Assembly: GCA_016193065.1 (NCBI GenBank)
Contig: JACPSX010000213.1
Location: forward strand, 1-14,155
Origin: Candidatus Tectimicrobiota bacterium
GTDB lineage: Bacteria > JACPSX01
Length of the DNA stretch: 14,155 bases
Direction of reading: 5' to 3'
Below, one piece after another: positions 5,178 through 6,529 of this stretch. Position 1 is the first letter of the stretch. Each line of letters starts with the position of its first letter. Made by a program: the position numbers and the translations under genes. The notes under the pieces were generated by a model. The model saw only the letters and a program-made list of their open reading frames with translations. It did not search any database and was not told the DNA's origin.

Positions 5178-5206
5178 ATGTTATCATTCAGAAGGACGAT
5201 CGTCAA
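5178..5206 (-). promoter_or_regulatory. Sigma70-type promoter of the yacL-ispDF-cysS-rlmB operon
   Basis: On the minus strand TTGACG (5206-5201), a 17-nt spacer and TAACAT (5183-5178) give 5/6 and 4/6 matches with ideal spacing. The -35 contains the TGA stop of the radA reading frame (5205-5203). The predicted 5' leader is about 50 nt, ending in the AGGGGGG ribosome site of yacL. Confidence 0.6.
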
Positions 5207-6529
5207 CCCGGATCGCCCTGGGAGCGCGGAAAAAGCACCTCCGTGGCTTCTTTAACCGTACGGACTTCTCTGACCTCCAGGGATACGAATCCCTCCTCAA
5301 GACGGCGAGCCGGAATCACAGCCCGACAAAACCCCAGCTTTTCCGCTTCTCGAAGCCGGGCCTGCAATTGGGTGACGGCCCGCACTTCCCCGGCCAGCCC
5401 CACCTCGCCTAAAATCACTGTGTGGGGATCCACCTCCCGGTCGTGAAAACTCGAGCATAGGGCGATGGCCACCCCGAGATCCACTCCGGGCTCTTCTACT
5501 CGCAAGCCTCCCGCCACATTAATGAAGACGTCGCTCCCCTGCAGAGGGTAGCCCAGTCTCTTTTCCAGAACCGCGATTAAAATCGCCACGCGCTGCGGGT
5601 CGACCCCCGTAACCGCACGTCGCGGGACCGCCGTATTGGTGGGGGACACCAGGGCCTGGATTTCCAAAAGCAGAGGCCTTGATCCTTCCATGCTGGCGGT
5701 CACCACGGAACCTGAAGCACCGGCTGGTCTCTCGGCTAAAAAGGCACTGGAAGGATTCAGGACCTCCCTCAGGCCACCGGAGACCATCTCGAAAATCCCC
5801 ACCTCATTGGTCGACCCGAAGCGGTTCTTTACCGCCCGCAGGACCCGAAAAAGGTGGGTTTTGTCCCCCTCAAAGTAAAGCACCGTATCGACCATGTGTT
5901 CGAGAACCCTGGGACCCGCCAGTGAGCCGTCCTTGGTCACGTGGCCAATCAGAAAAACCGAAAGACGAGATTTTTTGGCCAGTTCGACCAGGTGCGCCGC
6001 GCTCTCTCGAACGGATGGAATCAATGACGACGGCAGAGAGCTCCCGTTCTTGGACCCGTTCGAGGACACGCTGCAGACAGGTCTCGTAGAGGAGCAGGAG
6101 TCCTTCTCCTTTGAGTCCCAGGCGATCCCCTCGACCCCGGACCTGCTCCAGTGACTCCTCCCCGGTCACGTAGAGGACGGTTCCCTGGCGGGCCAGTCCT
6201 CCCACCGCTTGCAGAAGAAGGGTAGACTTGCCAATCCCCGGATCGCCGCCAACGAGCACCACCGATCCCGGCACAACTCCCCCGCCCAAAACCCGATCCA
6301 GTTCGGCAATCCCGGTCCCAAGGCGAGGGTAACGGGCGAGATCGATATCGCTCAGAGGGACGGGAAGTTCAGAAGAAGGAGGCGGACGCAGTTTGTGATC
6401 CTGCGACCCGGAATAGCTCTGACGCTCTTCTACCAGCGTGTTCCAATGCCCGCAGTCCGGGCAGCGGCCCAACCACTTGGGCGCCTGGTAGCCGCACTCC
6501 TGGCATACGTAGACAGCCCTAAATTTCAT
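5203..6529 (-). pseudogene. radA: radA, DNA repair ATPase, disrupted by a net 50-nt deletion
   Basis: RadA (Sms) is a RecA-like ATPase that drives branch migration at recombination intermediates. Frame one (from ATG 6529) has the zinc finger C9-C12-C23-C26, Walker A GGDPGIGKST and Walker B VVIDSI ending at residue 172 (codon at 6016-6014). There homology stops; the next 46 codons, to a stop at 5870, are out of frame. Homology resumes in another frame at 6012 (VRESAAHLVELAKK), then GHVTKDGS, the KNRFG motif and the complete Lon-like C-terminal domain to 5203. Compared with E. coli RadA, about 17 residues are absent between DSI and VRE, with one leftover base: a net 50-nt loss. Adding 50 nt gives a 458-residue protein, against about 460 in E. 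coli. It may be true inactivation or an assembly error. No good ribosome site precedes the ATG. Confidence 0.88.

Follow-up and report, generated by a model that had tools for sequence, protein, structure and literature searches.

RadA/Sms is a DNA branch-migration helicase represented by the TIGR00416 profile and by the structures 5lkm and 8rxc, in which a C4 zinc finger, Walker A and Walker B motifs, the RL1 loop, a KNRFG motif and a Lon-like domain follow one another along the protein. In the crystal structure, DnaB-type L1 and L2 loops, both unresolved, sit inside the ring (PMC5512693). Cryo-EM places the contacts with DNA in RL1 (residues 213-223, with K216 as the main contact) and at the N-terminus of helix RH1 (residues 188-204; S188 and R191), and it locates KNRFG at 251-255 and assigns D170 to the active site (PMC11612176). 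A second body of work bears on genes that appear broken in assembled genomes. It is documented that errors of assembly create false pseudogenes, driven by the assembler, the sequencing platform and coverage (Cooley and Wright 2024, PMC11017572).

The stretch of DNA analysed here, termed the window, is an entire contig (C192) of 14,155 bases. It belongs to a 2.90-Mb draft genome in 294 contigs that is 86.3% complete and 0.95% contaminated; the draft is the sole genome of its phylum in the compared set, which contains no close relatives from within the phylum. The minus strand of the window encodes a RadA/Sms homolog in which all of the elements listed above are present in their usual order. Unlike described family members, however, the gene as assembled is divided between two frames by a net loss of 50 nt, and the equivalent of Streptococcus pneumoniae RadA residues 173-189 is absent.

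The radA gene is split between two reading frames

RadA/Sms homology passes from one frame to the other with one base between them (Table 1). Positions 3-181 of the TIGR00416 profile match window 6526-6008 (187.1 bits), and positions 188-453 match 6042-5245 in a different frame (364.7 bits). Both scores fall below the curated cut-off of 403 bits, and no single-frame match exceeds it. The identity of the two halves is nonetheless clear from their content: the zinc finger and both Walker motifs lie in the first frame, at window 6529-6014, while the second frame carries the KNRFG motif (as AVKNRFGSTNE) and the Lon-like C-terminal domain and aligns with residues 190-446 of 5lkm (phmmer, E = 3.6e-87). 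These two-frame matches bear out the preliminary description, which had placed the break just after Walker B, with a switch from DSI to VRESAAHL across a single base. It had given the gene as 5870-6529; that interval covers the N-terminal open reading frame only, and the gene reaches 5203. Likewise, the frameshifted tail had been counted as 46 residues and is in fact 47.

Table 1. Features of the radA locus and of other broken genes in the draft genome. Positions are those of the window unless another contig is named.
Feature	Position	Strand	Description
RadA N-terminal part, in frame	6014..6529	-	ATG at 6529; C4 zinc finger, Walker A, Walker B; ends ...VVIDSI; 172 codons; TIGR00416 3-181
Junction	6012..6013	-	Lone C (6013), then GTT from 6012; 50 nt absent, on the basis of the 17-residue Q...Q block of relatives
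RadA C-terminal part, other frame	5203..6012	-	VRESAAHL, RL1 equivalent, KNRFG, Lon-like domain; stop at 5203; 269 aa plus stop; TIGR00416 188-453; 5lkm 190-446
Frameshifted tail of the N-terminal ORF	5870..6013	-	47 residues plus stop, from translation; homology not expected
Inverted repeat (9 nt, perfect), left arm	6056..6064	-	CTCGAACGG
Inverted repeat (9 nt), right arm	6006..6014	-	CCGTTCGAG; spans the radA junction
ahcY	L220 (C216), ~2823	-	Profile 1-119 / 141-416 in two frames; 20 residues absent, net 59 nt
clpB	L184 (C177), ~5238	+	24 residues absent, net 70 nt; frame-broken
tgt	L181 (C250), ~15313	-	53 residues absent, net 157 nt; frame switch
clpC (probable break)	L242 (C159), ~2523	+	Probably frame-broken

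The size of the gap follows from the conservation of the family. In all 96 readable intact relatives, 17 residues separate D-S-I from V-R-E (92 by direct match; the remaining four, called longer by a regular expression, also have 17 on inspection), and this block is absent from the window. Its first and last residues are Q throughout the 96, and its consensus is QTxxxxxxxSAPGSVSQ. Judging from this conservation, the lone C at 6013 most likely opens a conserved Q codon, and the net loss amounts to 3 x 17 - 1 = 50 nt. Restoring 50 nt yields (6529 - 5203 + 1 + 50)/3 = 459 codons including the stop, or 458 amino acids, and both the loss of about 17 residues and the restored length of exactly 459 codons had been proposed beforehand. 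A search of the genome for a second radA had also been suggested; profile and junction searches of this draft found neither a second radA nor an alternative copy of the junction, and the junction flanks had no exact match among the genome contigs searched.

The missing segment and the structure of RadA

In S. pneumoniae RadA (5lkm), the lost residues 173-189 adjoin Walker B, and VRE begins at 190. The segment lies where a DnaB-type L1 loop would be and includes S188 of the DNA-contacting helix RH1. The earlier proposal that the lost piece corresponds to the L1 DNA-binding loop region therefore holds in part: an L1-like segment and S188 are gone, but the main DNA-contact loop, RL1 (213-223), and KNRFG lie downstream of the gap and are retained intact in the second frame.

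Similar deletions elsewhere in the draft genome

The break in radA is one of many in this draft. A codon-usage scan for switches of coding frame inside genes, covering 1.30 Mb (45%) of the draft, returned 25 sites including radA. The count is an upper figure for the scan, because it takes in some genuine gene boundaries and small indels; in-frame deletions are invisible to the scan. The identical script and thresholds applied to 300 kb of E. coli K-12 MG1655 returned none. Earlier rounds of the scan used differing thresholds, and the strict round did not list radA. Two of the sites, at L211 11922 and L201 6716, are probably true gene boundaries. At another, near position 2292 on the minus strand of L135 (C191), the reading frame of a sigma-54 regulator is interrupted, apparently by a tandem duplication of 7 bases (GGGAGGA) and not by a deletion.

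Homology on both sides of the switch confirms a lesion of the radA type in at least six other conserved genes: ahcY, clpB, tgt, rmuC and the genes for a CoA-transferase and a periplasmic binding protein. For rmuC, the family III CoA-transferase and the Peripla_BP_6 protein, the same Pfam family is found on either side; no other full-length copy of ahcY was found in the draft genome. dctM, clpC and parA are probably broken likewise. Each broken gene has one lesion and is otherwise conserved. A fixed deletion size is ruled out by the values of 50, 59, 70 and 157 nt.

This pattern resembles the spurious pseudogenes that arise from assembly errors, in that many conserved genes are frame-broken within one draft. 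The lesions confirmed here, read from the assembled sequence alone, differ in that most are deletions ranging from tens of bases to over 100, whereas the published account covers frameshifts and internal stops of all kinds (Cooley and Wright 2024, PMC11017572).

Origin of the deletions

The preliminary description left open whether the change in radA was very recent or an artefact of assembly, noting that the rest of the gene is well conserved. That conservation is evident, and the genome-wide survey strongly favours an artefact, because several conserved genes are broken once each, and are otherwise undecayed, in one fragmented draft. The simultaneous recent loss of all these genes in one cell is far less likely, and recurrent deletion during library preparation or assembly is therefore the favoured explanation. 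Given a demonstrated deletion in radA and comparable ones in other conserved genes, we infer with high confidence that the gap has this origin and that the organism's own radA is ordinary and intact, with about 458 codons. The gap is one of many such deletions in the draft, those measured spanning 50 to 157 nt. Their probable source is rare deletion-bearing fragments, produced when the polymerase skipped sequence in library amplification or present as chimeric reads at low coverage, with which the short-read assembler bridged poorly covered stretches.

Neither slippage between direct repeats nor simple repeat collapse in the assembly graph accounts for the radA gap, because the flanking Q codons, as deduced from family conservation, leave neither shared bases nor direct-repeat microhomology at the join. 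Some deletion-bearing template must therefore have existed. Moreover, in a de Bruijn assembly with k = 141 the join must occur in some read or low-k contig, and deletion-bearing fragments made in the library are therefore its likeliest source. This value of k is suggested by one contig pair, C36 and C57, whose ends share exactly 141 bases; the largest k that MEGAHIT uses by default is also 141.

The existence of such a template would equally suit a real and recent deletion, in which case the sampled cells would lack the helicase and produce instead a zinc finger-Walker fragment ending in 47 out-of-frame residues. A single lesion in an otherwise conserved gene also fits a recent event, and E. 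coli tolerates the loss of radA, which is partially redundant with RecG and RuvAB (PMC4786428). However, the comparable lesions in ahcY, clpB, tgt, rmuC and other genes would demand many simultaneous recent losses, which makes this reading very unlikely. What counts against an artefact is that rpoB and recA are intact and that no gene essential in all bacteria was identified among those broken, which leaves slender room for real loss affecting a group of dispensable genes. It is highly improbable that the deletions are real and stem from a genome-wide process in this lineage, such as loss of sequence at short inverted repeats, by which numerous conserved genes, radA among them, were recently disrupted. 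The deletions might instead be real in a minority strain whose reads entered the consensus; the draft is fragmented and has features of a metagenome assembly, compatible with a mixture of strains, but many broken conserved genes would again be needed, and the prospect is remote. Lastly, both halves of radA are open, and an out-of-frame GTG (6069) lies upstream of the second, so that both frames might be used, either through ribosomal frameshifting to give a RadA that lacks some 17 residues or through separate production of the C-terminal half from GTG 6069. By eye, however, no slippery heptamer is recognisable at GATTCCATCCGTTCGAG and no Shine-Dalgarno-like motif stands close before the GTG; together with the retention of the 17-residue block throughout the 96 relatives, this renders such use scarcely credible.

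With recurrent library or assembly deletion as the preferred explanation, the break in radA almost certainly has no biological basis, and there is nothing unusual in the finding; the gap is no demonstration of a bacterium without RadA. It serves instead as a warning that a draft standing alone for its phylum in the compared set carries many gene-breaking deletions, and any gene loss deduced from it therefore needs checking at the level of reads.

Inverted repeats at the junctions

A perfect 9-nt inverted repeat, one arm of which spans the radA junction (Table 1), would occur by chance in about 0.5-1% of simulated 50-nt deletions, and short inverted repeats lie near several other junctions. Hairpins as the cause of the deletions are not upheld by tests across the set and serve as a lead only: folding energy at 22 sites was not significant (z = -1.2), and a pooled inverted-repeat test on 10 junctions, all at sites inspected beforehand, gave P values that varied with the radius between 0.005 and 0.19.

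Further features of the draft genome

In this 86% complete draft, no ruvB above the family cut-off and no 16S rRNA were found, and both may simply be missing from it. The uvrA gene is divided between the end of contig C36 (L144) and the start of contig C57 (L143), the pair with the 141-base overlap. At the left end of the window, four clustered tRNA genes (Thr, Gly, Tyr, Thr) occupy positions 25-475 of the minus strand.
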